Origin: Rivularia sp. PCC 7116
Lineage (GTDB): Bacteria > Cyanobacteriota > Cyanobacteriia > Cyanobacteriales > Nostocaceae
Length of the DNA: 64,000 nt
Assembly: GCF_000316665.1 (NCBI RefSeq)
Contig: NC_019678.1
Coordinates: 7,597,001 to 7,661,000, forward strand
Direction of reading: 5' to 3'
Shown: piece by piece, positions 1,850 through 47,589 of the stretch
How the letters are laid out: every line of letters starts with the position of its first letter
Position numbering within the stretch: the stretch's first letter is position 1
Position numbers and translations under genes: made by a program
Notes under the pieces: generated by a model
What the model saw: only the letters and a program-made list of their open reading frames with translations
Databases searched by the model: none
Told to the model about the DNA's origin: nothing

Positions 1850-2016
1850 TAGGACTTACGCAAGTGGCACATTTTGCTTGTAGGGGAGGCAAAAAGGGGT
1901 GTAGATTTTCTTCCCCCTTTATTGCCGTTGCTAGTACACTGATTGATTCTGAACGCAATAATAAGGTTTTCCTGTCACGCACCAACCAAAGGCTTATGAC
2001 AATTGCGTAAGTCCTG
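1850..2016 (+). mobile_element. Family A MITE copy 1 (167 bp), TSD CGGGT
   Basis: Terminal inverted repeats AGGACTTACGCAA (1851-1863) and TTGCGTAAGTCCT (2003-2015). The element is flanked by a perfect 5-bp direct duplication CGGGT at 1845-1849 and 2017-2021. It is longer than the other five copies by about 40 bp of interior sequence around 1888-1935. The interior shares the CTGTCACGCACC block near the right end with the sister copies. No transposase. Confidence 0.9.
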
Positions 2017-2068
2017 CGGGTATCTCAATAGTTCAAAATTTCAAATTATTACTGCATAATATGGAAAA

Positions 2069-4672
2069 TTATGCGCTCTCAACAGTAACAGTGAAAGTCA
2101 AATCGCTAAAATCTTTGTCGCCCCCGCCATACATATCCTCAAAGGCAAAGCCGTTATCTAAAGATTTGAGGTGCTCTATCCCATCTGGATTAGCATTGCC
2201 AAAACCAAAGTAGGCATTTAATGCGTTTCCATTCATATTATTAGTAGGATTTTTGTCCAGAAACTCTTGTGGAGTACCATTCGTAATCAAGTATGGTGCT
2301 AAAATTATTCCCCCATCAACCTTTGTGGTTAAGTTAGCATTATCTGCATCGAACTCTAATTCAGTAATACGTTGGTTGAGTGCTGCTGTTTCATAGCCTT
2401 TTTCTCCCGGTAAAATAAGCTGATTTGTAACTTTATCGACCACACTACCATCTAAGTCCAAGACTTCGTAAAAGCCTCCTGAATTGCTATAGAATGCCGT
2501 ACTGTTAATATCATCTAAAATCAACGAAACTTTTTGATCGATTCGATCATCTTTATCGAAATCAACGTTCCGGAGATTTACTATTCCATTGATGACAGGT
2601 TCTGAAACTTCAGAAACTAAAGAGTCATTTTCTGTAGATGACTGAGGCTCAGTTATGTTCGGGCTTTGTGGAGTCAAAGAATTAGAGTTGAGTTCTAATG
2701 CTTCTACATCTTCAATGGGAGAGAATTCAATATAATCAAAGCGAGCGAATTCACCTTGGTTACTATTTCCTTCGATTTTAAAGGTGTCACCAGACTGTAG
2801 TTGCACTTTTTCTATGGCAATACGGCTAGTTTTAGCGGCGGGTTTTGCCCAACCATCGGGTAAATCCTGGTTAAAGATAAAACTTGTAGTCTCTTCTTCT
2901 ACAGTGACCTTAGCTCTAGATTGACCGTCGTTTTCGTCATAGTAACCTACCTCTACCTGATAAGTTCCAGCTTCACCATTAAACGTGCCTGTAGCAAAGC
3001 CTTTATTCCCACGAGTCCCTTTAAGAGAGATATGTTTACCACCACTAGCACCAGAGCCTTCTACAGTTTCAACTTGATAACCATTTAGAGTCAGTTCCTC
3101 AGCTTCATAACGTAAGGGTTCATTGTTAAGAACTGTGGGAGGTGATTCAGACTCAGGCTCAGGGCTGTTTGGACTTTGCGAATTAGAAGGGTTCGAGGTA
3201 AATTCAAATGCTCCTACATCTGGACTACTATCTCGTACTACACCGCGTTGGTCAGTTTTTATACTTGTACTAGTGCCTGCATCAATTGCAGGACTATTAG
3301 ACTTGAGAGGACGCACTAAAGAACCATTGATAGTTTGCAATGAGTCTAACTTCGGGTCAACTATTTGAGAGCCTTCGACAACTCTTCCCCTTCCGTCGGG
3401 TTCTGAAAATTCTATATTTCCTCCGCCATCTATAAGCTGAAAGGAAGTTTGCGTTCCATTATTTGAGCTATTATTAGCAACGATTGAATTACTCAGGGTA
3501 ATTTCATTCTTACCTGAGAACCACAGTGCCCCAGCTCCATCGCCAGCAGTATTATCAACGATAGTAGAGTTGCTAATGCTTATAGGAGCGCTCGATGGCG
3601 GATTGATGAAGATACCGCCTCCCGCGTCGAAAGTTTCTTCATCATCAGAGACAGCCCGATTGCCAGATAAAGTAGTGTTTTCAATGGTGAGTGGGTTAGG
3701 TCCATCATACCAAAGACCTCCACCTTGCATTTCTGAAGTGTTATCAGCAATAGTGGTATTACGGATTGTCAGTTCGCCTAGTCCTCCTCTGATACCGCCA
3801 CCTAGAGCAATTCCCTTGCTACTTTTGCTCAGAGAGTTGTTGATAACTGTACTGTCTTCTACAAATACTTTGTCCTGCTTGTAAGAAAATAGAAATAATC
3901 CTCCTCCATGACCAGCGGCTTCATTCCCTTCAAACTGACTATTGCGAATAGCAATGGTTCCAGGTTCACTCCCTCTTGGTCCACCAGGACTAGCACCATC
4001 GGTAAAGATTGCTCCACCTCCGTCTTTGGCACTATTTTTAAGAAAAACAGAGTTTTCGACGGTTAATGGACCGAGCAAACTATAGATAGCTCCACCCGTT
4101 ATACCTTTGTTATTAGTGAAACGGCTATTTTCAACAGTCAAGCCTTGAGTTTGCTGGGCAGCAATTGCACCTGCGCTAAAACCAGAATTAGCAGGAGTGC
4201 CATCGTTGTTATCAAAACTACTATTCAAGACTGTGCCTTGAGAACGATAGTCCAGGTAGATTCCTGCACCTCGATCGGCTACGTTATCTTTGAACTCGAC
4301 ATTATCTATAGTGAGAGTAGCATAGTCATCAGCGAAAACTCCTCCACCTCTTAACTCTGCTTTATTGTCCTTAACTTTGCCGCTAACTGCTTTAGCATCA
4401 CTAACAGTTAAGTTTTTTAGCGTAAAGTCTTTTCCTCTACCTACAAAGAAAACCCGACTGGATTTATTGCCGCTAATGGTAAAGTTTTCGGCATCTGCTC
4501 CATCAATACTCAAATCTTTGTCGATATCTAATTGACCGCTAGTAAGCGTTATCTTCTTGTTAGCAAGGGCGGAATCGAAGCGAACAGTATCGCCAGAATT
4601 TGCATTTAAGATAGCTTCTCTAAGGGTTCCTTCTCCACTGTCTGCGGTGCTAGTAACTGTAATAATGGCCAT
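2069..4672 (-). CDS. Secreted/surface beta-helix protein with choice-of-anchor Q, CBM-like and DUF4114 domains
   Basis: About 867 residues. The N-terminus (ITVTSTADSGEGTLREAI) is the CSLREA-type start of polymorphic right-handed beta-helix proteins. About 25 rungs with NSTF/NNTA-like asparagine ladders follow to roughly residue 450, then a choice-of-anchor Q ending (SPAIDAG, TDQRGVVRD, DVGAFEF, about 465-495). A carbohydrate-binding-like module (YEAEELTLNGYQ to FARFDYIEF, about 525-655) and a C-terminal DUF4114 domain (FAFEDMYGGGDKDFSDLTF) complete it. Start: the TTG at 4681 is possible, but the ATG at 4672 with GGAA just upstream is preferred. No classical signal peptide is seen, so the export route is unknown. 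Its CBM module is homologous to those of the two proteins encoded at 33622-39544. Probably an extracellular polysaccharide-binding or matrix protein; enzymatic activity is not shown. Confidence 0.85.
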   Translation of the reverse strand: MAIITVTSTADSGEGTLREAILNANSGDTVRFDSALANKKITLTSGQLDIDKDLSIDGADAENFTISGNKSSRVFFVGRGKDFTLKNLTVSDAKAVSGKVKDNKAELRGGGVFADDYATLTIDNVEFKDNVADRGAGIYLDYRSQGTVLNSSFDNNDGTPANSGFSAGAIAAQQTQGLTVENSRFTNNKGITGGAIYSLLGPLTVENSVFLKNSAKDGGGAIFTDGASPGGPRGSEPGTIAIRNSQFEGNEAAGHGGGLFLFSYKQDKVFVEDSTVINNSLSKSSKGIALGGGIRGGLGELTIRNTTIADNTSEMQGGGLWYDGPNPLTIENTTLSGNRAVSDDEETFDAGGGIFINPPSSAPISISNSTIVDNTAGDGAGALWFSGKNEITLSNSIVANNSSNNGTQTSFQLIDGGGNIEFSEPDGRGRVVEGSQIVDPKLDSLQTINGSLVRPLKSNSPAIDAGTSTSIKTDQRGVVRDSSPDVGAFEFTSNPSNSQSPNSPEPESESPPTVLNNEPLRYEAEELTLNGYQVETVEGSGASGGKHISLKGTRGNKGFATGTFNGEAGTYQVEVGYYDENDGQSRAKVTVEEETTSFIFNQDLPDGWAKPAAKTSRIAIEKVQLQSGDTFKIEGNSNQGEFARFDYIEFSPIEDVEALELNSNSLTPQSPNITEPQSSTENDSLVSEVSEPVINGIVNLRNVDFDKDDRIDQKVSLILDDINSTAFYSNSGGFYEVLDLDGSVVDKVTNQLILPGEKGYETAALNQRITELEFDADNANLTTKVDGGIILAPYLITNGTPQEFLDKNPTNNMNGNALNAYFGFGNANPDGIEHLKSLDNGFAFEDMYGGGDKDFSDLTFTVTVESA

Positions 4673-4900
4673 ATTTTCCAATGTTGATTACATCAATTGG
4701 TAGAATACACTGGTCAATATAACTACAAAAAATCCACTTGAATACTAACAATATTTTTTCAAATACGCAAAGTTTATTCGTAAAAATAGAACAAGTATCG
4801 GTAAGTATAATTACTCTTTTTTACGAAAAAGACAAGATTCATACTTCCTCAATTTCTTGCCTTTTGAAACTGTATATTAAAAACATTATTTGAACGTATA

Positions 4901-5197
4901 TCAGCCACTACAATCGGCAATTTGTTTATTTACCAAAGGGGTATTTTGAAGAGCAACAAGTTCAATTTCCCCATTTTCATTACGCATAAAACCAGTCGCT
5001 TCTACAATGACTGATTGATTTGATACCCGTGTATTTTCAATAATATTATTATCTCGTTTACGAAATGCTGATAAATCGCGAATATTTGACCAATTTAGAT
5101 TTAAATCAACAGATTCGGTGGGATTTTGTGGTATTCTATGCCTTCCGGTAGCGACAAAAGTACTATCAGTGTTGCTAGAACATACTTGTATTTTTTT
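4901..5197 (-). pseudogene. C-terminal remnant of a filamentous hemagglutinin-type (TpsA) exoprotein
   Basis: Read on the minus strand, 98 codons end in the stop at 4901. The translation has the hallmark tail of cyanobacterial filamentous-hemagglutinin exoproteins: STFVATGRHRIPQNP, then LNWSNIRDLSAFR, then VEATGFMRNENGEIELVAL and finally QIADCSG-stop. The intact family is 700 or more residues with an N-terminal secretion domain; here the frame is closed by TAA at 5198-5200, with no homologous sequence upstream. It is therefore a decayed 3' end. An intact TpsB transporter lies at 40388, far from this relic. Confidence 0.7.
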
Positions 5198-5289
5198 TTA
5201 TGAATTTGTGAATCAAGTAAATAATTGTACTAGTTGTGACTAACTGGATTTGTCATTCCCGAATTGTAGATACAGCATATTTAGTTTTG

Positions 5290-5380
5290 GTAAAGTACAT
5301 TCGGACGGGCAGGAATGCCCCGCAGTTGCTACAACGGAACCTCCGCGACTCGCTGCTCTCCATCCTACAAGAGTTTCAGA
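5290..5380. repeat. Dispersed GC-rich repeat with hairpin core
   Basis: The core GGACGGGCAGGAATGCCC (from about 5296) is shared with 1724-1741 (ACGGGCAGGAATGCCCGT) and 57367-57384 (GGACGGGCAGGGATGCCC). The following GTTGCTACAACGGAACCTCC is matched in reverse orientation at 8766-8788. Interspersed palindromic repeats of this kind are common in Nostocales spacers. The 64-codon open frame over it is not judged a gene. Confidence 0.6.
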
Positions 5381-5553
5381 ATATAGCTTTGTACCTCATT
5401 TAGCTGCAAAGTGCTGTATAACTAACATCTTGCACTATTGTTAATCTGAAATTACTCCCAAGTAAAAAAACTACTCCCCTCTCGGCTTTATGATCGCCTA
5501 ACTTATTTAAGGAGGAAGTAACTCTTAGCCAGCTTTTTGTAAGCTAATATCAA

Positions 5554-6300
5554 ATGAAAAATTTTATTACAGAAGATATTCTTAACTGCTTAGATAGAGC
5601 AGCAGCAAATTTATATTTTCCAGGTTTTGATAATATGAATTACGATATGGTAACTGCTCGTCTAACGGGATTCCGAAACGATGCTAATTGGGCTTTGACG
5701 ATAGAAGAAATAGTTAGTTGGTACGGCTTAAATGGTGTTGAACCAGTCTTGGTTATTTCTGCATTCGGAAGCCGTGTTTTAATAAACGAACCTTTCGCTA
5801 CTTATTTCCCAGTTAAGTATTCATTGGGTGAATTAGAAAGAAGCAAAGAAGAAGATTATCAAGATATGTCCGTAGCAGGAATTATTTGCGACGAAGGATT
5901 TGATGTATGGGAAGATTCGGAGCAAGAAATCCCGGACTATTTGTTAGTAGTGATTCGCGGTAAGAAAATTATAGTTCACTCAAGGGAAATTCCGAGACAT
6001 CTTCAGATAAAAGATAACTTTAATTTTGACCTGACAATTCATATCGCAAACAAATATCGCACGCAAATTCTAGCAACTGAAACAGAATTAAGAGAAATAG
6101 TACCTGAAGAATTAACTCAAATTATTCAACTAGACAATTGGCATCATCCCGATGTCTATAACCCTAATTCTGAATTTTATATACCTAGTAAAACCAAATC
6201 TATGCAGATGATTGCTGAAGTGCTTGTATCTGGTAATCCAGAATTATATCAACCATGTGAGGAGAATAATGTTGACTGGCGAAAATGGATTGTTAAGTAA
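5554..6300 (+). CDS. Hypothetical protein, 248 residues
   Basis: Soluble acidic protein with no signal peptide or membrane segment and no motif I can assign. The start ATG follows GGAGGAAG about 35 bases upstream, which is too far to be its ribosome site, so the start is only moderately sure. Features visible: an N-terminal Tyr/Asn-rich segment (NLYFPGFDNMNYDM), a central beta-rich part (VLVISAFGSRVLI, DYLLVVIRGKKIIVHSR) and a C-terminal WHHPDVYNP...EFYIPS segment. The overall look (single domain of about 250 residues, accessory location) is like immunity-type or DUF proteins, but no family is claimed. Coding is supported by length and by typical codon use. Confidence 0.55.
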   Translation: MKNFITEDILNCLDRAAANLYFPGFDNMNYDMVTARLTGFRNDANWALTIEEIVSWYGLNGVEPVLVISAFGSRVLINEPFATYFPVKYSLGELERSKEEDYQDMSVAGIICDEGFDVWEDSEQEIPDYLLVVIRGKKIIVHSREIPRHLQIKDNFNFDLTIHIANKYRTQILATETELREIVPEELTQIIQLDNWHHPDVYNPNSEFYIPSKTKSMQMIAEVLVSGNPELYQPCEENNVDWRKWIVK

Positions 6301-6317
6301 AAAGCTGTTCAAACGTC

Positions 6318-6345
6318 GGGAGACGTAGCACTGCTACGTCTCTAC
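6318..6345. terminator. Palindromic AGACGTAGCA hairpin between convergent genes
   Basis: AGACGTAGCA (6321-6330), one central base, then TGCTACGTCT (6332-6341) form a perfect 10-bp inverted repeat between the convergent genes ending at 6300 and 6351. The same motif class recurs at 30318, 36715 and 57407, always just after a gene end. It may work as a bidirectional terminator or be a dispersed palindromic repeat. There is no strong T-run here. Confidence 0.5.
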
Positions 6346-6350
6346 AATAA

Positions 6351-8087
6351 CTAATAATAACTCCCCGATTTCCGGTGTTCTACAGCAGTCAAACCTTCAT
6401 TTTCAAAGACTTCACCGTTATCAACTACAGCATAAATTAACCATCTTTCACCGCATTTGGTTCTATTTTGTACGGTACATTCTAAGTAAGATAATGCTTC
6501 GGTGAGAACGAGACAACCGTTGTCAGCAGTTTTTGTAGATAGATCGACAAACGGATTATCTCCTAATGTACTATGACGAGAAAAATAACGGCGCACATTT
6601 CTGCCTTCTTTGAGGATATTTAGTACAAATTTATCCCCTAAATTACATATCAAATCTGCATTTTGTTCGTCAGCAATAGCAATCATGATTCCTGGGGGGT
6701 TAAAGCTGGCTTGAGATACCCAAGAAGTTAAAACACCTTTATCTGTCTCTCCATCGCGAGTTGTTACAACACACAAGGAACCAACAATTCGCCCTACTGC
6801 TTGTTCGGTACGATCTATATGGGTTTCCGTAATAACTTGGCTAGGAGTACGATTTTTTTTAGATTTTTTCAAGTTTTCAGCAAATAATCCACCAGCTTCT
6901 TGACACTCTTTGAGAATTTGAGGTGTAGGAGTGAAACGAACCCGAATTGATTCAAACCCCAAGCGATAATTGGCATCTTTAAACTTGTTTTCTATTAAAT
7001 CAACTGCTTCTCCACTCCACCCATAGGAGCCAAAGACTCCTGCTAATTTGGTTTTAGCTGCTGTTGAAAGAATTATTCCTAAAGCGGTTTGAATTTGAGT
7101 TGGTGCATGTCCACCTAATGTCGGCGAGCCAATAATCAATCCATCGCAAGCTTCTACAATGCGGGTAATCTCTTCTGTATCTGCGAGTTCGCAATTAATA
7201 GATTTTACATTCACTCCATTTTCAACTAAACCTTGAGCGATCGCACCTGCCAAAATCGCTGTATTCCCATAAGCAGAAGCATAAAGCAAAGCAACGCTCA
7301 ACTCTTTGGATTTTTGATTCTGGCACCATTGATTGTAATCATAAGTGAATCTACTGAGACTATAATTAACAATTGGACCATGACCGGGAGCGTAGGTTTT
7401 GGCAGGAAAAACTGCAATCTTTTCTAAAATAGCTTCGACTTGTTTGGCTTGGGGTGCGTGGAGACAGTCAAAATAGTAACGACGTTCCGCATCTAAACTT
7501 TTCCAGTCTTTATCAAATAAGGTATCTTCGCAAATATGAGCGCCAAACAATTTATCTGTATAGAGAATTTTTGTACCTGAATCATAAGTACAAAGTCCAT
7601 CAGCCCAACGGGGAGTAGGTATAGTCACAAATGTTAGATCGTGTCCACCTCCTAAATCTAGAGTATCCTCGGAGCGTACAGTTTGAATTCGCGATTCCCA
7701 CTCAGGCAAAGCCGCTTTGAGCGCATTCGCAGCCGGACGAGAGCAAATTATAGTTGCTTGAGGAGCTATTGGCAGCAATGCTTCTAAAGTTTTTCTACGG
7801 TTGGGATTGACATGACCCAGAATAATATAATCTAAGCTAGTAAGGTCTAGATGTTGCTTTAATTCTTGGAGATAAATTTCCGTAAAAGATTCACCAGGAG
7901 GATCGATTAAAGCTTTTTTATCAGCTTGTATCAAATAAGAATTTGCTGTAGTTCCCTTTTGACGGGAATATTCAACTTCAAACTTTAATCGTTCCCAAGT
8001 TCGCGATCGCAAAATTTTTGTATCTTGACCAATTTCAGCAACTTGGACATCTCTTTTACGATTTGTGGTTGTGGTAGTAGTTGACAT
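6351..8087 (-). CDS. flv1: Flavodiiron protein Flv1-type (diflavin flavoprotein, non-canonical metal site)
   Basis: Three-domain cyanobacterial flavodiiron protein of 578 residues: metallo-beta-lactamase-like domain (about 30-265), flavodoxin domain (about 275-420, ASAYGNTAILAGAIA, GSPTLGGHAPT) and flavin reductase domain (about 450-575). It acts with Flv3 in NAD(P)H-linked or ferredoxin-linked photoreduction of oxygen to water, protecting photosystem I. Where canonical enzymes have H-x-E-x-D-H iron ligands, this one has His92, Asn94, Asn96 and Arg97 (HVNPNR), as in Flv1 homologues. The ATG at 8087 is chosen: the open frame runs 30 codons further, but those residues are read-through of TTGGTAATT heptamers. 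Third gene of flv3 - psiE-like - flv1, all on the minus strand. A versus B paralogue (vegetative or heterocyst) cannot be decided. Confidence 0.92.
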   Translation of the reverse strand: MSTTTTTTNRKRDVQVAEIGQDTKILRSRTWERLKFEVEYSRQKGTTANSYLIQADKKALIDPPGESFTEIYLQELKQHLDLTSLDYIILGHVNPNRRKTLEALLPIAPQATIICSRPAANALKAALPEWESRIQTVRSEDTLDLGGGHDLTFVTIPTPRWADGLCTYDSGTKILYTDKLFGAHICEDTLFDKDWKSLDAERRYYFDCLHAPQAKQVEAILEKIAVFPAKTYAPGHGPIVNYSLSRFTYDYNQWCQNQKSKELSVALLYASAYGNTAILAGAIAQGLVENGVNVKSINCELADTEEITRIVEACDGLIIGSPTLGGHAPTQIQTALGIILSTAAKTKLAGVFGSYGWSGEAVDLIENKFKDANYRLGFESIRVRFTPTPQILKECQEAGGLFAENLKKSKKNRTPSQVITETHIDRTEQAVGRIVGSLCVVTTRDGETDKGVLTSWVSQASFNPPGIMIAIADEQNADLICNLGDKFVLNILKEGRNVRRYFSRHSTLGDNPFVDLSTKTADNGCLVLTEALSYLECTVQNRTKCGERWLIYAVVDNGEVFENEGLTAVEHRKSGSYY

Positions 8088-8097
8088 AATCAATATT

Positions 8098-8193
8098 GGA
8101 TTAAATTTGGTATTTGGTATTTGGTAATTGGTAATTGGGTTAGAGGGGGTAAAACTTTCTAATTCATCACTGTTCACTGTTCACTGCTCACTG
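8098..8193. repeat. Heptamer repeats (GGTAATT and CACTGTT units)
   Basis: The spacer between the PsiE-like gene and flv1 contains TTGGTATTTGGTAATTGG-type units at about 8107-8140 and CACTGTTCACTGTTCACTG-type units at about 8168-8193. These are STRR-like tandem heptamers, and they extend the flv1 reading frame artificially upstream. Confidence 0.8.
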
Positions 8194-8709
8194 TTAACGC
8201 CCATTGGTTTCTATTAATTCCGATTTATTTTGTCGATTTCGATAGCGTTGAGATACTGCTTGTTCGGGATCGATACCATTAAAGGTAGGGGGTAGCCAAA
8301 CTCGGAGAACTAATAGTACTCCTAGAACTAGTAAAAAGGCACAGGTTGCTACAACTTGAGTCCAACCGATTTCTAAAACACCTTTAACAATAATTTCTCG
8401 CAATGCGGAAACAATGGAAACTTCAACAGCTACACCAATAGATACTCGATGTTCCTGCAAGTAAATAATCAGCAGTCGGAATAACTCAACTAAAATCAGC
8501 AAAAACAGAATATCGGCAGTAACAGCATGAGACTCTAGAGGTGGAAGCAAAGAGAGAAACATATCTCTTACCTCAAGCACCATGAAGCTAAATAAACCGA
8601 TACACAAGCAAATTACAATTGTGTCTTGAATAAATTCCAAGCTTTTGACAACGCGCTCCCGGTTGATTTCATACATGGAATTCGAGGTATTTTCAGCAGG
8701 ATTATACAT
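8194..8709 (-). CDS. PsiE-family (phosphate-starvation-inducible) integral membrane protein
   Basis: About 171 residues with four hydrophobic segments: VICLCIGLFSFMVLEV, ADILFLLILVELFRLLIIYL, VAVEVSIVSALREIIVKGVL and VVATCAFLLVLGVLLVLRVWL. The EHRVSIGVAVEVSIVSALREIIV stretch after the second segment is the characteristic PsiE core. The family's function is unknown. The ATG at 8709 (MYNPAENT) is chosen because the 26 codons upstream read through a dispersed repeat; ATG at 8676 (MYEINRE) is also possible. It sits between flv3 and flv1 on the same strand, 107 bp from flv1. In Synechocystis the flv4 and flv2 genes also flank a small membrane protein gene, so a membrane partner here is a reasonable inference. 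Confidence 0.8.
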   Translation of the reverse strand: MYNPAENTSNSMYEINRERVVKSLEFIQDTIVICLCIGLFSFMVLEVRDMFLSLLPPLESHAVTADILFLLILVELFRLLIIYLQEHRVSIGVAVEVSIVSALREIIVKGVLEIGWTQVVATCAFLLVLGVLLVLRVWLPPTFNGIDPEQAVSQRYRNRQNKSELIETNGR

Positions 8710-8829
8710 AGCGGGAAGAGGGGTAGATGGGAGAGATGAGGGGGAAGAGGAGCCATTGCGTTGCGGAGGTTCCCTCCGTTGTAGCAAATGGCGTGGGGTA
8801 GAGGGGGGAGATAATAACTACTCCCTTCC

Positions 8830-8900
8830 CGGTAAAAGATTACCTAAGTGATTGAGGGAGGGAGTGAGAGAGGGAGAGAGTGAGGGAGAAATTTTTATAG
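8830..8900. repeat. Purine-rich low-complexity tract
   Basis: A run of GAGGGAG/GAGAG-type units at about 8853-8890 (TGAGGGAGGGAGTGAGAGAG and following) lies in the flv3 to PsiE spacer. There is no coding potential. It could affect transcript readthrough between the two genes. Confidence 0.55.
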
Positions 8901-8955
8901 GAAATCTTAGAGCGGGATAGGAGTAATTATGTTCCCACTAACCACTAACCACTAA

Positions 8956-11527: not shown

Positions 11528-11530
11528 GTA

Positions 11531-12348: not shown

Positions 12349-12383
12349 TCGTAACACCATAAACTGCTTCGATAATTAACAAC

Positions 12384-17491: not shown

Positions 17492-18399
17492 TTGAATCTC
17501 CTTATAGATCCTTCAAAGCAATTAAATTAATCGGTGTGTTGTGTTGAGGAGCGACTGTTTAAAAACAATCGAAGATGAGTTTGAGTAAGCACCACTTGAG
17601 GTACTAAATTTGACGAAAACTAAAGATAGCATTACCTCTTATAAGAAGCACTTTCTTTGAATTTCCATAACCAACCACTAGATATATACGACACAACAAT
17701 ACGAAATTGCATTTTTAAAATCTGACACGTTTGCCAATAACTTTCAAATGCTTACATGTAATGTCGCCGGACAGCAGCTATTTGATGTTAGCAAATTTGT
17801 GAAAGTTAGCCACTTTTTTTTCAAGTTGCTGTTAGTTTATTAAATCTAATTGAGAATCAAACTTTAAAACAGCTTGCACAACTTAAATGCAGCAAATTCA
17901 TCTATCTTTACACTGAAGTAACTTTTTGCAACTTTTTTTGCCTGCAATTAAGTGTTAACGCCCTACGCGAAGTCAAAAGCAATACAAGTGTATATGAAAG
18001 CTTAATAAATGATTGCACTAATCATTAATAATTAACAACTGATTGCTGCTTCAGTCTCAACAAAAAAATACCCTATTCCTGAAATTTAGTTATTTAGGAG
18101 TATTCATGTGGTAAAAAACAATCCTAATCTCACCCTTTACACTCTTGACAGTTTTAAGATGTTTTTATAAGCAAATTATTAAATTATTAATTCTGGAATA
18201 GTGAAGAGAAAACTAATAAGAGAATCATAAATACATTCTTATAAGACACGCTTTTCATCAAGGCAGTTCCTATCGAATAGTTTTATAAATTAAACCAAAA
18301 TTATATTAGACATTAAGCTACGTAATATATGATGCATCTATCTGTAGAAAAGAAATTTTATAGAATATAAAAAAATAATTAAAAAGTTTGGTATCTAAT
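17492..18399. other. Long AT-rich spacer without recognisable gene
   Basis: About 900 bases between the BON gene start and a family A element. Six frames are broken by frequent stops, and I saw no RNA gene. The first 150 bases upstream of the BON gene probably carry its promoter. Confidence 0.6.
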
Positions 18400-18525
18400 T
18401 AGGAATGGCCGCAACTGGCACATTTATGCTGTAGGGTGCTTGTACACAGATTAATTGTTAAGGGAATAATAAAGCAATGAGTGTACGGCACCATCCGAGT
18501 TGTGTGACGCGCAGCCTTAGTCCTG
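18400..18525 (+). mobile_element. Family A MITE copy 2 (126 bp, degenerate ends), TSD CTAAT
   Basis: It begins TAGGAATGGCCGCAACTGG and ends CAGCCTTAGTCCTG. A perfect 5-bp duplication CTAAT lies at 18395-18399 and 18526-18530. The interior keeps GTAGGGTGCTTGTACAC and GTGTACGGCACC. The degenerate inverted ends suggest an old insertion. A second decayed fragment with GACTTACGCAACTAG and CAGTTGCGTAGC ends follows at 18537-18611. Confidence 0.8.
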
Positions 18526-18766
18526 CTAATATTTATGACTTACGCAACTAGCAGATCGCGTTCGCTCGCACGGTTACGCCGAATGCAATCGTCTTATTAC
18601 AGTTGCGTAGCGCTTAAAAACAGTTTGCTTCTCAGGTTAAGGTAAGAAATAGGCTTTGGAGGCAAAGCCTCCATCTACTACCGATGCAAGATTTGACATC
18701 CTCGCCGCCCTGTAAGTGCAGCGATTCCCATCTATTCAAACAATTCGATTCAGCGAACAAATTTGA

Positions 18767-19441: not shown

Positions 19442-19643
19442 TTAAAATCTCCGTTTAGCAATTTAATATAGTTAGTAGTTCGCCACAATCAGTCATAATC
19501 AAAGTTAGACCTACGTGTCCTACTAATGTTCTTGCTTAATAAACTTAAATTGCAATCAATCTCTAGTTAACATGTGCATTTATCTTGAGGAGGAAATTAG
19601 GGAGTAGGAAGTAGCGAGTGTTAATTTGAGGCGTGTTTGTAAA

Positions 19644-19769
19644 CAGGACTTACGTAATTGTCATCAGGTTTTGGTTGGTGCGTGACAGGAAAACCTTATT
19701 ATTGCGTTAGAAATCAAGCGGACTGTCACAGCACCCTACAAGCAAAATGTTCCAGTTGCATAAGTCCTA
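19644..19769 (-). mobile_element. Family A MITE copy 3 (126 bp), TSD GTAAA
   Basis: Ends AGGACTTACGTAA and TTGCATAAGTCCT. Perfect duplication GTAAA at 19639-19643 and 19770-19774. Orientation is reversed relative to copies 1, 4, 5 and 6: the conserved block reads TGTCACAGCACCCTACA near the right end. Confidence 0.9.
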
Positions 19770-19925
19770 GTAAATAAGCGTGTTTGTAACTGAAAACGGA
19801 AATCGCCCCTATAGTTGTTCGGTTCTACTCCTTTCGTTAGAAGACACATTTTAGGTAAGCTCATATGTAGTGAGTCACCAGTTTCTGAAGCTGTTAGTCG
19901 CTTTGAAATAAAGGGGTGAAACCTT

Positions 19926-28803: not shown

Positions 28804-29109
28804 ATTTCACAACCTTTTGTTTTTAAACTTTTTCCAGACTACCAATTTTCCGTATAATTATCTACAAAACCATATCAAAACTTAAAATTACGCAAACTTA
28901 CTTAGTAATTGCGATAGCAAGCAGTTTCTAGTGGCTCCCTTAATTCAATTTGACAGATTTACCCTAGCCCAATGTGGAATACAGTTCTCCCGCTAATAGC
29001 ACAAACCATACGAATCTCATTAAATATTGCATCAGTCTCAACAAGAGCCGGAGACTCCAGCAACAGTTGTTAATAGTCTGGCAACTCAACAAAGCCCAGA
29101 AAAATAAAG

Positions 29110-29381
29110 GCATTGCTGAATTGAGATATGAATTTATTATTACTGTTTTAGGACTTACGCAACCGGCACATTTTTCTTGTAGGGTGCTGTGACACTTTGA
29201 GTAACTGTGAACGTAGTAACAATGTTTTCAGTGTCACGCACCAAACGGACATTGTGACAATTGCGTAAGTCCTGTGTTTAATAGCAGCCCCCTAAATTCC
29301 CGCTTCTTTGGGGAACTTTAAAATATATTTCTTCCCCAGAATTGGGGGTTGGGGCTGTTCATACTTTTAATCAGCAACGCC
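29110..29381 (+). mobile_element. Family B MITE copy 2, split by a family A element; TSD AAAATAAA
   Basis: Outer ends GGCATTGCTGAATTGAGATA (29110 on) and ATCAGCAACGCC (ending 29381). A perfect 8-bp duplication AAAATAAA lies at 29102-29109 and 29382-29389. Removing the inserted family A element and one copy of its duplication leaves about 141 bp, close to the 145-bp copy at 39803. Confidence 0.85.
29150..29275 (+). mobile_element. Family A MITE copy 4 (126 bp) nested in family B, TSD TGTTT
   Basis: Perfect 13-bp inverted ends AGGACTTACGCAA and TTGCGTAAGTCCT, with duplication TGTTT at 29145-29149 and 29276-29280. The interior has GTAGGGTGCTGTGACAC and GTGTCACGCACC, which also pair. The insertion point lies inside the family B element. 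Confidence 0.92.
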
Positions 29382-35928: not shown

Positions 35929-36710
35929 TAAAAATTGAGGTTTAAAGTGATATTAAAAACCTCTGAATATAAAAAATATAGATAAATACTTAGTAAGAAA
36001 TGCCTATATAAAATTCTTTAATCAATGACTAAATTCATATTATTATTTGTCAAAAAAAAAGCATAAATCTCTCTCAAAACAAGATTACGGAAAATAATTG
36101 TTTTAATATTTGTATATCTGGGCTTTGAAGCAAAAAGTGAGTATTTACCTAAGCATAATAACTTAGTTAACCAAGATGACATGCCGCTCATAATTTGTAT
36201 TGATTTATGATTTTATCAATTTTTATAATTTCCAAATATAATAAAATCTAAACTATATATACTGCAATATAAAGGTTTCAGAGAATTACAAAACATTGCT
36301 TATCTCCAAGTCAAAAAAGCGCGATCGCAAATTTTTTAATAGATCAATTTTCTGAAGTCTCAGGATGCAAAAATATAATTTGAGATTCATAGGAGTTTAT
36401 CAAAACTTATCTAAAAGACAAAAATACACTATTGAAGATTAAATAAAATGAAGTGGATTGATAAATTAAAGACTTATGTAGGTAGCCAAATATGATTATA
36501 GGGTTTGTAGCTTAGAAAAAATTTACAGCAGTAATAAAGCTTGTAGTGTTACACACCAAGCAATAGCTAGGATAAAAACGTAATTCCTGAAATTTATATG
36601 GGATAAAAAAATCGCAGAGAACACTAAGGAAGAAGAGAGAGAAAGTTTAACATTGCTCAATTGAGTGATGAATTATATTCATCTACATGTTGTGACAAAT
36701 CCGAAACTCA
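35929..36710. other. AT-rich spacer, no gene seen
   Basis: About 780 bases with no coding frame that I can support. A HIP1 site lies at about 36322. The 5' leader of the downstream gene is in its first 70 bases. Confidence 0.55.
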
Positions 36711-39947: not shown

Positions 39948-39955
39948 CATAACCT

Positions 39956-42361: not shown

Positions 42362-42467
42362 TGTTGTGGCATTGGGCATGGTTATTAGGGATTAGATAGT
42401 ATATAGAAACAAGTTTGTTTAACCTTTACCCTTTAACTTTTAATCTTTGACCTTTAGCCTTTAATTT
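42362..42467. repeat. TTTAACC-type heptamers before the M50 gene
   Basis: Degenerate units CCTTTAAC, CTTTTAATC, TTTGACC and CTTTAGC at 42420-42465, matching the array at 503-572. They end directly at the ATG of the M50 gene, so its ribosome site is embedded in repeats. Confidence 0.65.
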
Positions 42468-43190
42468 ATGGATTTTCAATCACTAGAAACTAAACTAAAC
42501 AATAGCGTAGACCGTATAGGAATATGGTGGTTAATTGGGGCTGCCGTAGCTACGATTGTACTATGGCAAGTACCATATGGAGATTATATTTTATACCCAT
42601 TTTCGATTTTAGCGACTTGGTTTCACGAAATGGGTCACGGCTTAGCAGCTATACTGCTGGGAGGAAACTTTCAGCAGCTACAAATTTCCGCTGATGGTTC
42701 TGGTGTCGCCTATCACAGCGGTAGGTTATTGTTTGGACCGATTGGTCGTGCTTTAGTATCTGCTGCTGGACCGATGGGACCGCCAATTGCAGGTGCTATA
42801 TTAATTTTGGCATCCCGTAGCTTCAAGACAGCCAGCATCAGTTTAAAAATATTAGGCGGATTTTTACTATTTTCAGTATTAATTTGGGTACGTTCGCTTT
42901 TTGGAATAGTCGCGATTATCCTTTTAGGTTTAATTATCCTTGGTATTGGTTTTAAAGGAAATCGTTGGTTTCAGGGATTTAGCATTCAATTTCTCGGCGT
43001 GCAAGCCTGTATAAGTACTTATCACCAAGTTGATTATTTGTTTACTCGTACCGCAGGTCCTTTAGGACTTTCTGATACCGGACAAATACAGCGACAATTA
43101 TTTTTACCTTATTGGTTTTGGGGTGGATTAATGGCAGTTGCTTCCCTTGTCATACTCATACAAAGTTTGCGAATCGCTTATAAAAAGTGA
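42468..43190 (+). CDS. M50-family membrane metallopeptidase
   Basis: 240 residues with about six membrane segments. The zinc motif HEMGHG (His53, Glu54, His57) lies in the second segment, and AAGPMGPPIAGA supplies the M50-like Pro/Gly segment; a distal Asp is likely in the C-terminal third. The protein is of the short M50B-like type. Intramembrane proteolysis is the family role; the substrate is unknown. It lies 106 bp after the TpsB gene on the same strand. Confidence 0.85.
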   Translation: MDFQSLETKLNNSVDRIGIWWLIGAAVATIVLWQVPYGDYILYPFSILATWFHEMGHGLAAILLGGNFQQLQISADGSGVAYHSGRLLFGPIGRALVSAAGPMGPPIAGAILILASRSFKTASISLKILGGFLLFSVLIWVRSLFGIVAIILLGLIILGIGFKGNRWFQGFSIQFLGVQACISTYHQVDYLFTRTAGPLGLSDTGQIQRQLFLPYWFWGGLMAVASLVILIQSLRIAYKK

Positions 43191-43375
43191 GCAGTGAGCA
43201 GTGAACAGTGAACAGTGAGCAGGTGCAGCGGTTTTTGGTTGGATAAACGGTAAACTCTTGATTTAGTTAATAATTGACTGCACAAAATAGATTATTAGAC
43301 GAATAATTCTTTGTTTGTCGCTTATTTTATTTTTACCGATAACTGATAACTGCTCACTGCTCGCTGTTAACTGAT
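43190..43375. repeat. GTGAGCA/GTGAACA heptamers
   Basis: (GTGAGCA)/(GTGAACA) about five copies at 43188-43222 and the complementary (CTGCTCA)/(CTGTTAA) units at 43342-43372 flank the spacer between the convergent M50 and GIY-YIG genes. They can pair as a long hairpin. Confidence 0.8.
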
Positions 43376-43939
43376 TCACCCAAACGGCTGTCCCCAAAGT
43401 TTCCAGTTTTCTTTATTAAAAGGGGACTTCCATTTTTGAATTAGTTTTAATTCTAAATTTTGTCTGGGTTTGGTTGAATCAGGAGCATCCCACCAAAAGG
43501 CAATGTTAACTGCTGTCTTTAAACCATATTGATAATGCAAGTCCTGATATTTTTCAATATACCGCTTGCAATCATGTATCCCTTTCCATCTGTGATTCGA
43601 TTTACAGGTTTCACCGACATAAAGCAGTAAATCAGCAGCCATATCGACCACAAAATAAAGGCAAGCTTGACCTGGACTATCTGCTGGCAATCTATAAAAA
43701 GACAGCGAACAAGGTTCAAGTTCAAAAGGATCTATTATATCTGGCGAGACATGTGCTGGCGACACTTCAAATAAAGCTACTTGAAGCGCTGGTTTACTTG
43801 TTCTCACTTGTTGTTGATGGACGGATATCTGCTTTTTCCACTTTTTTAAAGCTTTCACATCCATCAATAACACGGGAGTTCTGCTTGTTGCAGAATCAAT
43901 CTCCGACGGTGAGAACAAATCAAGTTGATTAGTTTTCAC
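43376..43939 (-). CDS. GIY-YIG nuclease domain protein
   Basis: 187 residues. After about 90 N-terminal residues of unknown fold, a GIY-YIG-like core is seen: CLYFVVDMAADLLLYVGET, then HRWKGIHDCKRYIEKYQ, and a late NLELKLIQKWKSPFNKENW carrying the acidic metal ligand Glu. Such proteins are single-domain endonucleases of unknown cell role. An ORF overlapping it in another frame is a shadow. Confidence 0.75.
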   Translation of the reverse strand: MKTNQLDLFSPSEIDSATSRTPVLLMDVKALKKWKKQISVHQQQVRTSKPALQVALFEVSPAHVSPDIIDPFELEPCSLSFYRLPADSPGQACLYFVVDMAADLLLYVGETCKSNHRWKGIHDCKRYIEKYQDLHYQYGLKTAVNIAFWWDAPDSTKPRQNLELKLIQKWKSPFNKENWKLWGQPFG

Positions 43940-44151
43940 TCTTCGTTCCTATAGAACGCAACTTGGGAATCCTATCATTAATTTGTGATTAATCAGACAT
44001 CATAATAATTTAAATATTTATTTTTGTCAGAGAATGTTTATTTAAAGCCTGCAAGTAAGTGGCTCAACCAGCGAAAAGATTACTGGGCTTCTTCTGCAAA
44101 GAGTATTGTTTTCAATCACAAGAATAAATGAATATTAATTTTTAATTTTTA

Positions 44152-44276
44152 TAGGGCTTACGCAAACGATATATTTTTTTGTAGGGTGCTGTGACACTTA
44201 GATCAACTTTGAACGTAGTAATAGGACTTGTAGTGTCACGCACCATCCGGGTCTTGTGACAGTTGCGTAAGTCCTG
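44152..44276 (+). mobile_element. Family A MITE copy 5 (125 bp), TSD TTTTA
   Basis: Ends AGGGCTTACGCAA and TTGCGTAAGTCCT, with perfect duplication TTTTA at 44147-44151 and 44277-44281. The conserved interior GTAGGGTGCTGTGACAC and GTGTCACGCACC is present. The right duplication overlaps the stop codon region of the acyltransferase (stop at 44279-44281), so the insertion may have supplied the 3' end of that gene. Confidence 0.9.
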
Positions 44277-44278
44277 TT

Positions 44279-45415
44279 TTAATTACTACTTGCCTGCTGA
44301 TTGCTACTTTTTGTGAATTTTAAATTTTTATTCCATTGAATAGATGGTTTTTCCATGACTTGCCATATTAGGGTTGCAAAGGCAATTGAACCTCCTACTC
44401 CCAGCATTAAGGCAAGAAATTCACTCCAGACTGAATGATTAAACAGTTTAAATACAATCCAATATATACCTCCCAAAACAGGAGTGTGAGTTAGATATAA
44501 GCTATAAGAAATTTTCCCTAAAAATTGTAACCATTGCCAATTCAGCAATTGTCCCATCCGGTTAGCACGCGCAACTTCCAGCAAGAGTACCGCAACAATT
44601 GAACTCGCGATCGCAAAAATTGAAGAATTGGCTATTCCCGCAGACACTAATATTGCAACATAGAAATAGAAAAGCAAAAGCTTCAATTCCTTGCGCCATG
44701 CCCAATAAGCAAAAATACCGAGTAGAAAACTGTACCATATCGGTAAAAATATTGTTGCCCTACCCTCATATCTAATTATTTCGATTGCATAGAAAGCAGC
44801 AATAACAGCACTGGGAAGAAAGACAAAAAGTCTCCCTCGATTAGTATTCCAACGAGAATCGATCCATTGCACTAACCAAAAAAGGATGCCAAATATAAAA
44901 TAGGATTGAACTTCCAAACATAATGTCCAGTAAACATCATTTATATGATGCAGTTTGAAAATATCCTGTAGATAAAACAAATGCGCTATTAATCTTGGAA
45001 CAGATAAAGGGTGTCCCAAGGGTGCAAATTCTTCACTCTTAGCATATGCAGCAATAAAACCAATAGCTAGTGTTATCAGAATAGATAGGTAATAAGTAGG
45101 ACTGAGTCTGACTAAACGACGTAGAACAAAATTTTTGAACCAGGCAAAATTAAATTGAGTATTTTTTAACGAATAAGCAATTAAAAAACCGCTGATTACG
45201 AAAAAGATAGGCACACCCAAATGACCTTTTTCAAATACTACATATACAAACCATTTGGGTAAGGTATCGGTAAATTGGGAAATAGTCTTATCAGGATCTA
45301 TTACAGAGTGAAACAGAATAACCCATAAAGCCGCCAAAGCACGAAGCCCGTCAATAAAGTGAAAATGTACTTTAGGTTTTTTCGTAGTGGTTTTCAACAG
45401 TGCTTTTGATTCCAT
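44279..45415 (-). CDS. Acyltransferase 3 (OafA/YrhL-like) membrane protein
   Basis: 378 residues, about ten membrane segments. It starts with the family signature HFIDGLRALAALWVILFHS with the conserved His, then RRLVRLSPTYYLS. The C-terminus has YSLYLTHTP. Family members transfer acetyl or other acyl groups to extracellular sugars such as O-antigen or exopolysaccharide. The stop codon coincides with the target duplication of a family A element, so the last few residues may differ from relatives. Isolated gene in the surface-polysaccharide part of the window. Confidence 0.85.
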   Translation of the reverse strand: MESKALLKTTTKKPKVHFHFIDGLRALAALWVILFHSVIDPDKTISQFTDTLPKWFVYVVFEKGHLGVPIFFVISGFLIAYSLKNTQFNFAWFKNFVLRRLVRLSPTYYLSILITLAIGFIAAYAKSEEFAPLGHPLSVPRLIAHLFYLQDIFKLHHINDVYWTLCLEVQSYFIFGILFWLVQWIDSRWNTNRGRLFVFLPSAVIAAFYAIEIIRYEGRATIFLPIWYSFLLGIFAYWAWRKELKLLLFYFYVAILVSAGIANSSIFAIASSIVAVLLLEVARANRMGQLLNWQWLQFLGKISYSLYLTHTPVLGGIYWIVFKLFNHSVWSEFLALMLGVGGSIAFATLIWQVMEKPSIQWNKNLKFTKSSNQQASSN

Positions 45416-45671
45416 TGGTATATCAGAATACTTTTAATAAATAAAACAAGTGTTAATTCCTAAGTATAATCATCAATTACTGAAAGTCAACTGTTTAAAA
45501 AGCAACATATTTACTTTACCCCGGCAAAAAGTAAATGTATATTTATCAACTAAGTATTAGCTTCAAGACTAGGAACGCAATTCATTGAGGTTCTGCCTAG
45601 GCTGTGTACTTTGATAAACTAAACCCCTTAAACTCGGGAGCCTGTAAATTTCATTTATTGTGCAAAACTAG
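45416..45671. other. Spacer without gene
   Basis: No open frame of note. It leads into the family B fragment. Confidence 0.5.
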
Positions 45672-45707
45672 GGTTATTGGCTATTCATACTTTCAATCAG
45701 CAACGCC
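45672..45707 (+). mobile_element. Family B fragment (right end only)
   Basis: GGCTATTCATACTTTCAATC followed by AGCAACGCC matches the right end of family B. No matching left end or duplication was found, so this is a relic. Confidence 0.6.
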
Positions 45708-45909
45708 ATTTTCTTAACGAGCTTGTTATTCTTGCACAAACACTATCTCTTTTTATTGCAAGATTTGTTCCACTAATACATTAACCAAAAGTATAAAATA
45801 ACATATTTATGAATAAGTATTTTTACTTCTAATACTGGTAATTAAATTGTTCATTACAGCACGTAATTACAATCGAAACTATAGTATTTTCTGAAATATT
45901 CAGCAATTT

Positions 45910-46665
45910 TCAGCGAATATCTTCATAAAACCGCTTGAGAAACTTAGCATCAACACCTATTCCCCAGAGAAACCCAATATATAGATAAATTACATTTGCT
46001 TTCAGGGCACCCCAACGTGCAACTCGGCGGTCAGAACTTTGCACTACACGATTTAACATGCATATTCTTCCCTTGCGCGCAATTTTTCGACATAAATCTC
46101 CATCTTCCATAATTGGTAGCGCTTCATCAAAGCCACCGCAATCCCAAAAGTCCTGGCGACGACAAAACATTACCTGATCGCCAAATAACAAACGCAAACC
46201 TTTGAAAAACAAATGAGGTCGAAAAATTAGTGGTGCGTAATAAGTTTTAAGATAATTGTGTAATGATGTAGCCCAGCGAGTAGTTTGAGAACCAGTCATC
46301 AAAGAAATAAACCCACCGCAAGCAACCGTTGAGTCTGCTAAAGTCTTATCAACTAAAGCAATTAAATCATCGGGTACGGTAGTATCTGCATGAACAAAAC
46401 ATAAAATATCTCCAGTCGCCTGTTTTGCACCATAATTCATTTGTACAGAACGTCCGCGATCGCAAGATTGAAGGATTAGGATTTTCGCTGTTGAAGAAAA
46501 AGATTCAAAAGCAGATTTTGCGATTAGAAGAGTTTCATCTTCGCTGCCACCGTCAACCACTATAATTTCTTGGGGTGGTGGTGAAAGTAGAGCAAGTTGA
46601 CGCAAAGTTCTAATCAAGCAGGCTTCTTCGTTAAAAGTAGGAATAATGATCGAAACTGAAGACAT
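45910..46665 (-). CDS. TIGR04283-type family 2 glycosyltransferase
   Basis: 251 residues. GT-A fold: VSIIIPTFNEEACLIRTLRQL at the N-terminus, VDGGSEDET, CDRGRSVQMNYGAKQATGDILCFVHADT, then GDQVMFCRRQDFW and MEDGDLCRKI. This run (GRSxQMNxGA, HADT, FGDQ) is the signature of the TIGR04283 family, whose members in other cyanobacteria are annotated as arsenosugar-biosynthesis glycosyltransferases. The arsenosugar role is taken from family naming and not shown here. Preceded on the same strand by a rhodanese gene 46 bp upstream. Confidence 0.88.
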   Translation of the reverse strand: MSSVSIIIPTFNEEACLIRTLRQLALLSPPPQEIIVVDGGSEDETLLIAKSAFESFSSTAKILILQSCDRGRSVQMNYGAKQATGDILCFVHADTTVPDDLIALVDKTLADSTVACGGFISLMTGSQTTRWATSLHNYLKTYYAPLIFRPHLFFKGLRLLFGDQVMFCRRQDFWDCGGFDEALPIMEDGDLCRKIARKGRICMLNRVVQSSDRRVARWGALKANVIYLYIGFLWGIGVDAKFLKRFYEDIR

Positions 46666-46711
46666 TAACTATCAATAAACGGATAAATTTAATTACTCAA
46701 TGCCCAATGCC

Positions 46712-47164
46712 TTATCCTTTCATAGAAGCATGATACTTTGATTTGAGCAATTTTCCCCAAATAAAATTGTAAGGATGAACAATTTCTACTTGACGGTTAT
46801 CTTGATAAATTGGTTTTCCCCGATTAACCCACTGAAAAATACCACCACTCAAATTAAAAACATTTTGATATCCTGCTCTTTGAAGTTGTTGAGCAACCTT
46901 AGCGCTACGATAGCCTACAGAACAATAAACTACGATACGGGTATTTAGAGGGACTTCCGATAATTGTGGAATACCTGAATTATTAGCTTCGATTATTTGT
47001 GCAGATTCAATGTGACTGACAGCATATTCTTCTGAAGCGCGTGCATCTATGATTAGTGGAATTGACGAAGATTGTTCATCTAACCATAGACTGAATTTTG
47101 GGATACTTACTGATTTTACTTGAGGAAAATTAAGTTTGATGAGCAGTTCGAGTAAGTAAAACAT
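46712..47164 (-). CDS. Rhodanese-like sulfurtransferase domain protein
   Basis: 150 residues with one rhodanese domain: IIDARASEEYAVSHIESAQII, and an active-site loop CSVGYRSAKVAQQL whose Cys would carry persulfide. The preceding N-terminal hydrophobic stretch is short. The C-terminus has YQDNRQVEIVHPYNFIWGKLL. Probably co-transcribed with the TIGR04283 glycosyltransferase; such rhodanese/glycosyltransferase pairs are common in cyanobacteria. Confidence 0.85.
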   Translation of the reverse strand: MFYLLELLIKLNFPQVKSVSIPKFSLWLDEQSSSIPLIIDARASEEYAVSHIESAQIIEANNSGIPQLSEVPLNTRIVVYCSVGYRSAKVAQQLQRAGYQNVFNLSGGIFQWVNRGKPIYQDNRQVEIVHPYNFIWGKLLKSKYHASMKG

Positions 47165-47300
47165 TAGCTACATTTTCAAAACGATTCAACTACCGAATAC
47201 TAAAAACTAGACTAGCTACTTAGACTATTTGATGTTGCCCAATTAATGCAAAATTTCACTTATATTTTATTAAGCAATACCAGTTATTTAGCAAAAGATA

Positions 47301-47433
47301 AGTGGGTATGCAAAATTATTTGTGTTATTGCGTTAGCGCAGCGTGTCCGATAGGACATACGACAGCGTTAGCAGAGCGCTGCGCTAACGTTCAACTCACA
47401 ATCACAAATATACAATTAATTTTGCCTAAGTAC
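47301..47433. mobile_element. Inverted-repeat element with strong internal stem (family D copy 2)
   Basis: Outer arms GCAAAATTA (47310-47318) and TAATTTTGC (47417-47425). Inside lies a perfect 13-bp pair CGTTAGCGCAGCG (47331-47343) and CGCTGCGCTAACG (47377-47389) around TGTCCGATAGGACA. No ORF. Related by its arms to 12486-12580. Confidence 0.55.
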
Positions 47434-47463
47434 TTACAATTACAGGAGATGCGTTATAGATTT

Positions 47464-47589
47464 TAGGAATAACCGCAACTGGCATATTTTTCTTGTAGGG
47501 TGATTGTACACTGACTCCCAACTCAAGGTATTAATAAGGCAATCAGAGTATGCTACCATCGGAATCTTGTAACAATTGCGTAAGTACTG
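47464..47589 (+). mobile_element. Family A MITE copy 6 (126 bp), TSD GATTT
   Basis: Begins TAGGAATAACCGCAACTGG (as copy 2) and ends TTGCGTAAGTACTG. Perfect duplication GATTT at 47459-47463 and 47590-47594. The interior keeps TTGTAGGGTG. Copies 2 and 6 share the variant left end and form a subgroup. Confidence 0.85.

Follow-up and report, generated by a model that had tools for sequence, protein, structure and literature searches.

Coordinates below refer to a window of 64,000 nucleotides from the cyanobacterium Rivularia sp. PCC 7116 (NC_019678.1, positions 7,597,001 to 7,661,000), numbered from its first letter. Dispersed over this window are six copies of a short repeat with inverted ends, here called family A, all of which lie between open reading frames (ORFs) of at least 90 amino acids (Table 1). 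Each copy is bounded by a perfect 5-bp direct repeat, and the six pentamers are all different. The data support the view that these repeats are a family of miniature inverted-repeat transposable elements (MITEs) which transpose with 5-bp target duplications. By their ends they resemble a group of larger cyanobacterial insertion sequences, and the type of end was switched repeatedly on bodies that otherwise changed little.

Table 1. Copies of family A in the window. Ends are given as left/right; types N, V and X are defined in the text.
Copy	Position	Strand	Length (bp)	Ends	Duplication (positions)	Remarks
1	1850-2016	+	167	N/N	CGGGT (1845-1849, 2017-2021)	long-body subfamily
2	18400-18525	+	126	V/X	CTAAT (18395-18399, 18526-18530)	
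3	19644-19769	-	126	N/N	GTAAA (19639-19643, 19770-19774)	
4	29149-29274	+	126	N/N	TGTTT (29144-29148, 29275-29279)	within another dispersed repeat
5	44152-44276	+	125	N/N	TTTTA (44147-44151, 44277-44281)	
6	47464-47589	+	126	V/N	GATTT (47459-47463, 47590-47594)	V end with 2 mismatches, N end with 1
7	36468-36589	+	122		AAATT	decayed; 4 mismatches in each end; found by end scan and profile

Copies, duplications and empty sites

The six copies, with their lengths of 125-126 bp (one of 167 bp) and their perfect, differing duplications, are present where the original prediction placed them, except that copy 4 starts at 29149 and not one base later at 29150. All six were recovered at E 7.5e-17 or better with a profile of 59 copies from the same genome, window copies 2-6 among them. 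The decayed copy 7, which had been missed when six copies were counted, lies outside the profile and matches it at 36526-36588 (E 1.7e-4).

A protein encoded in the window has matches in Rivularia sp. MS3 (95%) and Calothrix parasitica NIES-267 (91%), which places the host in the Nostocales. The complete genome (8.73 Mb, three contigs, labelled G000) was searched for further members. At least 42 places match copy 4 (40 of 215 candidates scored); elements were drawn from the best 30 of these and some others, from the first 100 of 219 places with N ends and from part of the places with V ends. With at most one mismatch, N ends occur 219 times as compared to 14 times in a reversed-pattern control, and V ends 72 times as compared to 3 times. 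Assuming that N and V ends pair, and with X ends not counted, the genome holds roughly 140 elements. The proposed hundreds per genome are somewhat too many.

A set of 78 elements was chosen by the ends alone (at most two mismatches each, 118-135 or 160-175 bp). Most are 124-128 bp long, which leaves no room for a transposase. The flanking 5-bp repeat is exact in 63 of them and agrees in four of five bases in 8, in three in 2 and in one in 5, while only 3 of the 78 are compatible with a flush 6-bp repeat. Since the set was not selected for duplications, the consistent 5-bp repeat expected of other copies is borne out, and together with the empty sites described below it upholds the claim of transposition as opposed to another mode of repeat spread. 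Short inverted repeats spread by segmental duplication, as a chance product or artefact, can practically be discounted: the 63 exact duplications comprise 50 distinct pentamers (86% A+T), and these and the empty sites refute it. The family thus combines the short length, lack of coding sequence, inverted ends, target duplication and high copy number of MITEs.

Empty sites were sought with 90 queries of joined flanks (some loci twice), which gave 15 rows spanning the junction. Related empty sites were found for three insertions, namely copy 4 and two kindred elements. The repeat that hosts copy 4 runs uninterrupted through the site at four other places in the genome (L438, which is the same place as L363, and L038, L014 and L050), and at L438 three of five bases of the single pentamer of copy 4 agree. 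A 90-bp element of Brasilonema bromeliae (L202) is absent in B. angustatum (L153; 92% identity over 218 bp, pentamer 4/5), and L202 and L138 in turn lack a 119-bp element present in L153 (pentamer 4/5 each); both elements have tips as in family A and different lengths. Copy 5 is absent at the aligned site of the same-genus genome G005, where the right flank aligns and the left flank has diverged. At the locus of copy 4 in Rivularia MS3, an apparent part of a family element is placed differently, as judged by eye. Two further candidates, L339 and L379 compared with L423, were dropped, the matched stretch being by position copy 2 of the window itself.

Some observations on repeats in this genome may be added. 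The host repeat of copy 4 (window ca. 29109-29381, GGCRTTGCTGAATTGA ... TCAGCAACGCC) is probably another MITE-like family. The listed matches to copy 4 are clustered in one third of the 8.7-Mb chromosome (contig C1), with 26 of these 42 beyond 6.0 Mb. Seven elements of 93-175 bp (L036, L037, L041, L045, L054, L067 and L078) have N ends and at least four of five duplication bases around unrelated interiors, which indicates several MITE families with a common end. At L080 (2010-2713) two elements lie about 0.2 kb apart, all duplications read ATATT, and the outer pair of ends can also be read as a 705-bp unit.

Insertion sequences with the same ends

For the parental element, plasmids were searched with the 38-39-nt ends, and 60 related genomes were then searched with the transposase. 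The plasmid matches were elements of 1248-1257 bp, two in Nostoc sp. ATCC 53789 and one in Gloeocapsopsis dulcis, with the duplications GCCCA, ACTAT and TATCC. The transposase of one of them (336 amino acids) scores 415.7 bits under the IS701_2 model (NCBIfam NF049921) and a second parental-type transposase 418.4 bits, at a cut-off of 250. Pfam matches to DDE_Tnp_1, DDE_5 and DDE_Tnp_2 are weaker, with PF01609 and PF13546 over the cut-off in the Nostoc protein, and a sequence search found no relative of solved structure. Candidate residues of the Asp-Asp-Glu (DDE) triad, assigned by eye as D68/D69, D155 and E262/E267, are invariant in seven of seven aligned sequences.

Transposase matches were found in 35 of the 60 genomes. 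Six full elements of 1246-1249 bp (L296, L297, L298, L353, L354 and L355) occur in three genomes of the same genus (G004, G005 and G006), all with both ends intact and exact 5-bp duplications; the transposase frame of L355 contains one stop. Altogether 16 loci combine two ends, a transposase frame (by eye in L285 and L287) and an exact 5-bp duplication, the other ten of these elements being 1140-1329 bp long. The MITE ends are present in 12 of the 16, and L300, L311, L315 and L357 agree in the outer part only. The left 23 bp of copy 4 match one end of a G006 element exactly, and distant relatives (28-31% identity) have the ends YAGGACTTACGCATTGACA. Ends of 22-23 bp common to the MITE and to elements of 1.25 kb, with an equal duplication length of 5 bp, are what relates a MITE to an autonomous element. 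Judged by this agreement, the parental type of family A is a group of 1.25-kb insertion sequences with an IS701_2 transposase. The insertion sequence with the same ends and duplication that was to be sought according to the original prediction thus occurs in same-genus and in other cyanobacterial genomes.

Other candidates for the parent were rejected. Three matches to PF01609 in the own genome did not lead to a parent, and PF01609 was likewise tried in the relatives. The single own-genome match to PF13359 belongs to a different element with the likely inverted ends TAGACCCGTCCAAAA. A 1003-bp pair of ends (L152, four of five duplication bases) encloses no frame recognised as a transposase. At L265 in G003 (G003:C1059:5500-8221) a transposase beside a MITE end belongs to a second insertion sequence nested within the MITE: at 1527-2557 a family element is interrupted by an insertion sequence of ca. 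0.9 kb with the ends CTAGGGCGTGTTTTCAAACT and a PF01609 match. This MITE has kept its own duplication ATATG, and the whole is a possible 1-kb composite.

The transposases relate the parent to IS701, for which the part of the account by De Palmenaer et al. (2008, PMC2266710) dealing with this family gives a 4-bp duplication and a length of 1400-1550 bp. The elements found here differ from that description in duplicating 5 bp and in their length of about 1.25 kb, and their transposases remain below the cut-off of 150 of the general IS701 model NF033540 (75.7 and 79.3). Because the transposase is IS701-related while duplication and length deviate, we call the parent IS701-like and not a standard member. 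Its 5-bp duplication falls in the range of 4-5 bp that the same source, in its passage on ISH3, states for this family separated from IS4. By that description ISH3 has CRGT ends and archaeal hosts, unlike the YAGGA tips and cyanobacterial hosts here. ISAs1-type elements of the relatives have ends CAGGGCAAACGCATC or close variants (L207, L211, L234 and L247) that resemble the parental CAGGACTTACGCA. Their ends nevertheless differ and their duplications are 10 bp (L211, L220, L234 and L247) as opposed to 5 bp, PF13808 was not found in the own genome, and DDE_Tnp_1_assoc is not among the Pfam matches of the parental transposase, so that ISAs1 was rejected as parent.

In the genome of PCC 7116 itself a single transposase fragment (residues 262-336) was found, which ends beside a perfect N end and shares 88% nucleotide identity with the G006 element in the terminal 212 bp. 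By this comparison the family looks orphaned, the parent being reduced to a right-end stub of ca. 212 bp. Copy 4 nonetheless shares 97-99% identity over 116 bp with nine copies (L004-L012), four of which have the same trimmed body. With only a stub left, this near-identity suggests that loss of the enzyme was probably recent, or else that it acts from outside. A 126-bp copy matches 15 of the 60 genomes, comprising the own genome, seven of seven others of the genus, and 7 of 28 from other genera of the family (several by ends only); none of the 24 genomes from the order's other families matched.

End types and their switching

Three types of end can be distinguished. Type N, YAGGACTTACGCAA, is the parental form. 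Type V is YAGGAATGGCCGCAA (AGGAATGGCCGCAA), and each V end usually adds one base to the element. Type X, YAGGACTAAGGCTGCG (AGGACTAAGGCTGCG), was seen on right ends only. The inner box is CGCAAYTGKCACA in N and V and TGTCACA in X. A set of 83 own-genome elements with at least four of five duplication bases contains 47 NN, 15 NV, 7 VN, 6 VV, 7 VX and 1 NX; left and right are arbitrary for a few of them outside family A, and L058 is a doubtful NV.

The same body can carry different ends. The 167-bp body occurs as NN (copy 1), NV (L032), VN (L033) and VV (L367), and a body like that of copy 3 occurs as NN (copy 3), NV (L049), VN (L366) and VV (L371). The copy 4 body is NN in copy 4 and NV in nine copies. 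Near-identical copies of copy 2 have V/X (L361 and L363) or N/N ends (L075), and the bodies of L027 (VN) and L279 (VX) are near-identical. In the set of 78, duplications are exact in 17 of 19 NV or VN, all six VV, all seven VX, the one NX and 32 of 45 NN elements. Exact duplications in 31 of the 33 elements with a V or X end imply that those elements moved.

A tree was built from 71 own-genome bodies with the ends cut off; nine elements outside family A and three more were left out of the 83. Weakly supported branches, with Shimodaira-Hasegawa-like approximate likelihood ratio test (SH-aLRT) values under a threshold, were collapsed as soft polytomies. The minimum number of end-type changes is 13 on the left and 16 on the right for the full tree, 10 and 13 once branches below SH-aLRT 80 are collapsed, and still at least 6 and 8 at a threshold of 95. 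Shuffling the labels 200 times at threshold 80 gave means of 14.6 left and 21.3 right, with 10 and 16 as the lowest counts. The observed left count equals the shuffled minimum and the right count is lower than in any shuffle, which argues for frequent switching with some inheritance kept. End type was thus switched repeatedly on otherwise little-changed bodies. Copies 2 and 6 do share a variant left end, both being V as predicted, but V is also found on many other bodies and the right end of copy 2 is X. The further proposal that the shared variant end marks a separate wave of transposition is contradicted by the many switches on the tree and by bodies that carry both ends.

The exchanged segment is short. 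Left V ends have the tip T and a C after CGCAA in 19 of 19 cases, and right V ends the tip C and a T after CGCAA in 18 of 19. In N ends, too, these are the most frequent bases on their respective sides (T..C in 40 of 54 left, C..T in 29 of 46 right). As these side markers have not moved, the end type is borne by a block of at most 14 nt.

In exact form, V ends were found in this genus only. The exact 18-mer was found 40 times in the own genome and in five of the seven others of the genus (G006 55, G005 37, G004 32, G001 3, G003 1, G002 0, G007 0), and in none of the 52 genomes outside it. With one mismatch allowed, a V 14-mer gave 72 places in the own genome, 97 in G006, 126 in G005, 64 in G004, 6 in G002 and 11 in G007.

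Hairpin folding and the route of exchange

Several elements are predicted to form long hairpins: the advantage in folding over shuffled sequences is large for copy 4, copy 5 and the VV element L371 (z -5.8, -3.9 and -5.4) and modest for copy 2 and for L007, an NV hybrid (z -1.7 and -2.0). Over 59 copies, pairing in the inner stem reaches 98.4% of cells, and three adjacent pairs changed in concert in five sequences. The outer stem, which contains the mismatches of the hybrids, is paired in 81.6% of cells. Types of the inner arms agree in 56 of 59 copies; of the other three, L055 is a hybrid as judged by eye, and the motifs used gave no assignment for two. All pairing measures but one exceeded every one of 500 shuffles, the exception being the 11 pairs changed on both sides, which 53 of the 500 shuffles reached; these controls were made on related rows and do not give probabilities.

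Such folding could mean that the repeats are conserved regulatory RNA or DNA hairpins, transposition being incidental to their spread. The strong hairpins, the concerted pair changes in the inner stem and the position of the six copies between ORFs agree with such a function, which we nonetheless consider highly improbable. Terminal inverted repeats fold by construction, and coordinated multi-base pair changes are expected not only under selection on a hairpin but also from quasipalindrome template switching, which needs no selection to keep the arms alike. Furthermore, copy 2 and L007 fold only modestly, the number of both-side changes is reached by shuffled rows, and Rfam gave no match at gathering scores.

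Instead, we are confident in the overall reading that the repeats form one MITE family with ends of IS701_2-type parentage, probably moved in trans, whose modular ends were swapped, most likely by templated copying. The family would consist of non-coding hairpin-forming DNA of about 126 bp, with subfamilies of up to 167 bp, the ends of which copy those of the 1.25-kb insertion sequences. An IS701_2-type DDE transposase, supplied in trans, would cut at the YAGGA tip and insert the element with a 5-bp duplication. The block between this tip and the inner CGCAA would be exchangeable, N being the parental form, V genus-specific and X a third form, and blocks would have been replaced many times on near-unchanged bodies in hybrids that stayed mobile. 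The transposase would need the tip and the inner box (CGCAAYTGKCACA or TGTCACA) and tolerate the middle; an N-type transposase probably accepts N, V and X ends alike. Of this reading, the ends, the duplications, the parental type, the hybrids and the repeated switching are demonstrated by the data; movement in trans, acceptance of V and X and the way in which blocks are exchanged are inferred.

A number of observations weigh against this reading. Fifteen of the 78 elements, 13 of them NN, have no exact duplication, and movement is read from duplications and empty sites, with no transposition event observed. The comparison of empty sites proposed in the original prediction, successful for the host repeat of copy 4 and two kindred elements, gave no clean empty site at copies 2 and 3. 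On the parental side, ten loci with a transposase match have two end-like sequences (at most three mismatches each) without the exact duplication (L290, L299, L302, L304, L305, L316, L317, L319, L320 and L356). Beyond the ends the MITE body gives only short, chance-level matches to the parent; as there is no convincing likeness, the MITE would not be a simple internal deletion of it. The body tree is built from 90 columns and leaves 31 of its 61 inner branches open, and at threshold 80 the left-end count (10) equals the lowest of the shuffles. Some bodies are mosaic, for example L044, the left half of which resembles the 167-bp body and the right half another (by eye). Finally, a V-ended parent may exist outside the searched genomes.

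The last point bears on the possibility that V and X ends belong to other IS701_2-type insertion sequences and that MITE ends track the active transposase. V ends are indeed numerous in the genus and functional, judging by their duplications. We regard this origin as unlikely, since none of the six full same-genus elements has a V end and hybrid NV elements would in any case require one enzyme that accepts both ends. Among the fetched loci no V pair was found 400-3000 bp apart with a duplication, apart from a 408-bp N/V pair (four of five bases) which is too short for an insertion sequence. Nor did the exact places listed for G000, G004 and G006 include a V pair spaced like the ends of an insertion sequence (by eye), and searches of plasmids with V ends found none in any cyanobacterium.

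Mosaic bodies indicate that ordinary recombination between copies could account for the end swaps: homologous recombination or gene conversion would produce the new combination, the recombinant would then transpose, and the hairpin would have no special role. This is a real possibility, which we rate somewhat short of probable. The side-specific bases kept in V ends are as expected from same-side donors. On the other hand, in the four pairs that combine different ends with a body identity of at least 97%, the bodies differ in only 1-3 columns, so that exchanged tracts would have to be short, and the occurrence of V on both sides still demands either two origins or one left-to-right transfer of a block no longer than 14 nt.

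We consider it most likely that the block is copied from a template, which would be either the opposite hairpin arm (quasipalindrome template switching) or another copy. Mosaic bodies favor copy-to-copy exchange, while the limits of the block and the spread of V to left and right favor arm-to-arm copying. Our more specific proposal is a tentative one: ends may evolve as blocks, template switching within the hairpin of the element itself transferring 4-5 bp of the end that faces the transposase between arms (or between copies), so that an orphan family could gain NN, NV, VN, VV and VX forms that are still moved by one transposase while the body changes little. If true, this would be a route for non-autonomous elements to explore or escape recognition by a transposase.

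Quasipalindrome template switching is described, in the portions of PMC7202029 and PMC8794818 that deal with it, as a multi-base replacement that makes imperfect inverted-repeat arms alike. The arms of family A would be made alike in the same manner. Those portions concern a reporter gene and RNA genes, without a link to transposon ends.

MITEs for which a parental type has been identified are elements of a known kind; recurrent block exchange in transposon ends is, to our knowledge, unusual. Short non-autonomous elements of cyanobacteria reportedly include Nezha, said to have been described by Zhou et al. in 2008, and the MITEs of Anabaena PCC 7120, attributed to Wolk et al. in 2010. Family A or its parent may already be named among these or in ISfinder. 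Searches for the end letters aggacttacgca, gcgtaagtcct and ggacttacgca gave no relevant open-licence paper in PubMed Central (any matches being unrelated by title), and the term MITE appeared in none of the listed matches to a literature search combining it with Rivularia and Calothrix. The present assignment identifies a previously unassigned repeat as a MITE family of known parental type and reveals a group related to IS701 with target duplications of 5 bp rather than 4. The replacement of short blocks in mobile, near-identical copies makes it testable how ends change and yet stay mobile, and also whether the MITE hairpin aids this by copying one arm onto the other.

Two copies in the window have additional features in their surroundings. 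A single N-like end, TATGACTTACGCAACTAGCA, lies immediately outside copy 2 at 18534-18556. The right duplication of copy 5 (TTTTA, 44277-44281) overlaps the stop codon of an acyltransferase-like ORF on the minus strand (44279-45415), which places the insertion at the extreme end of this gene.

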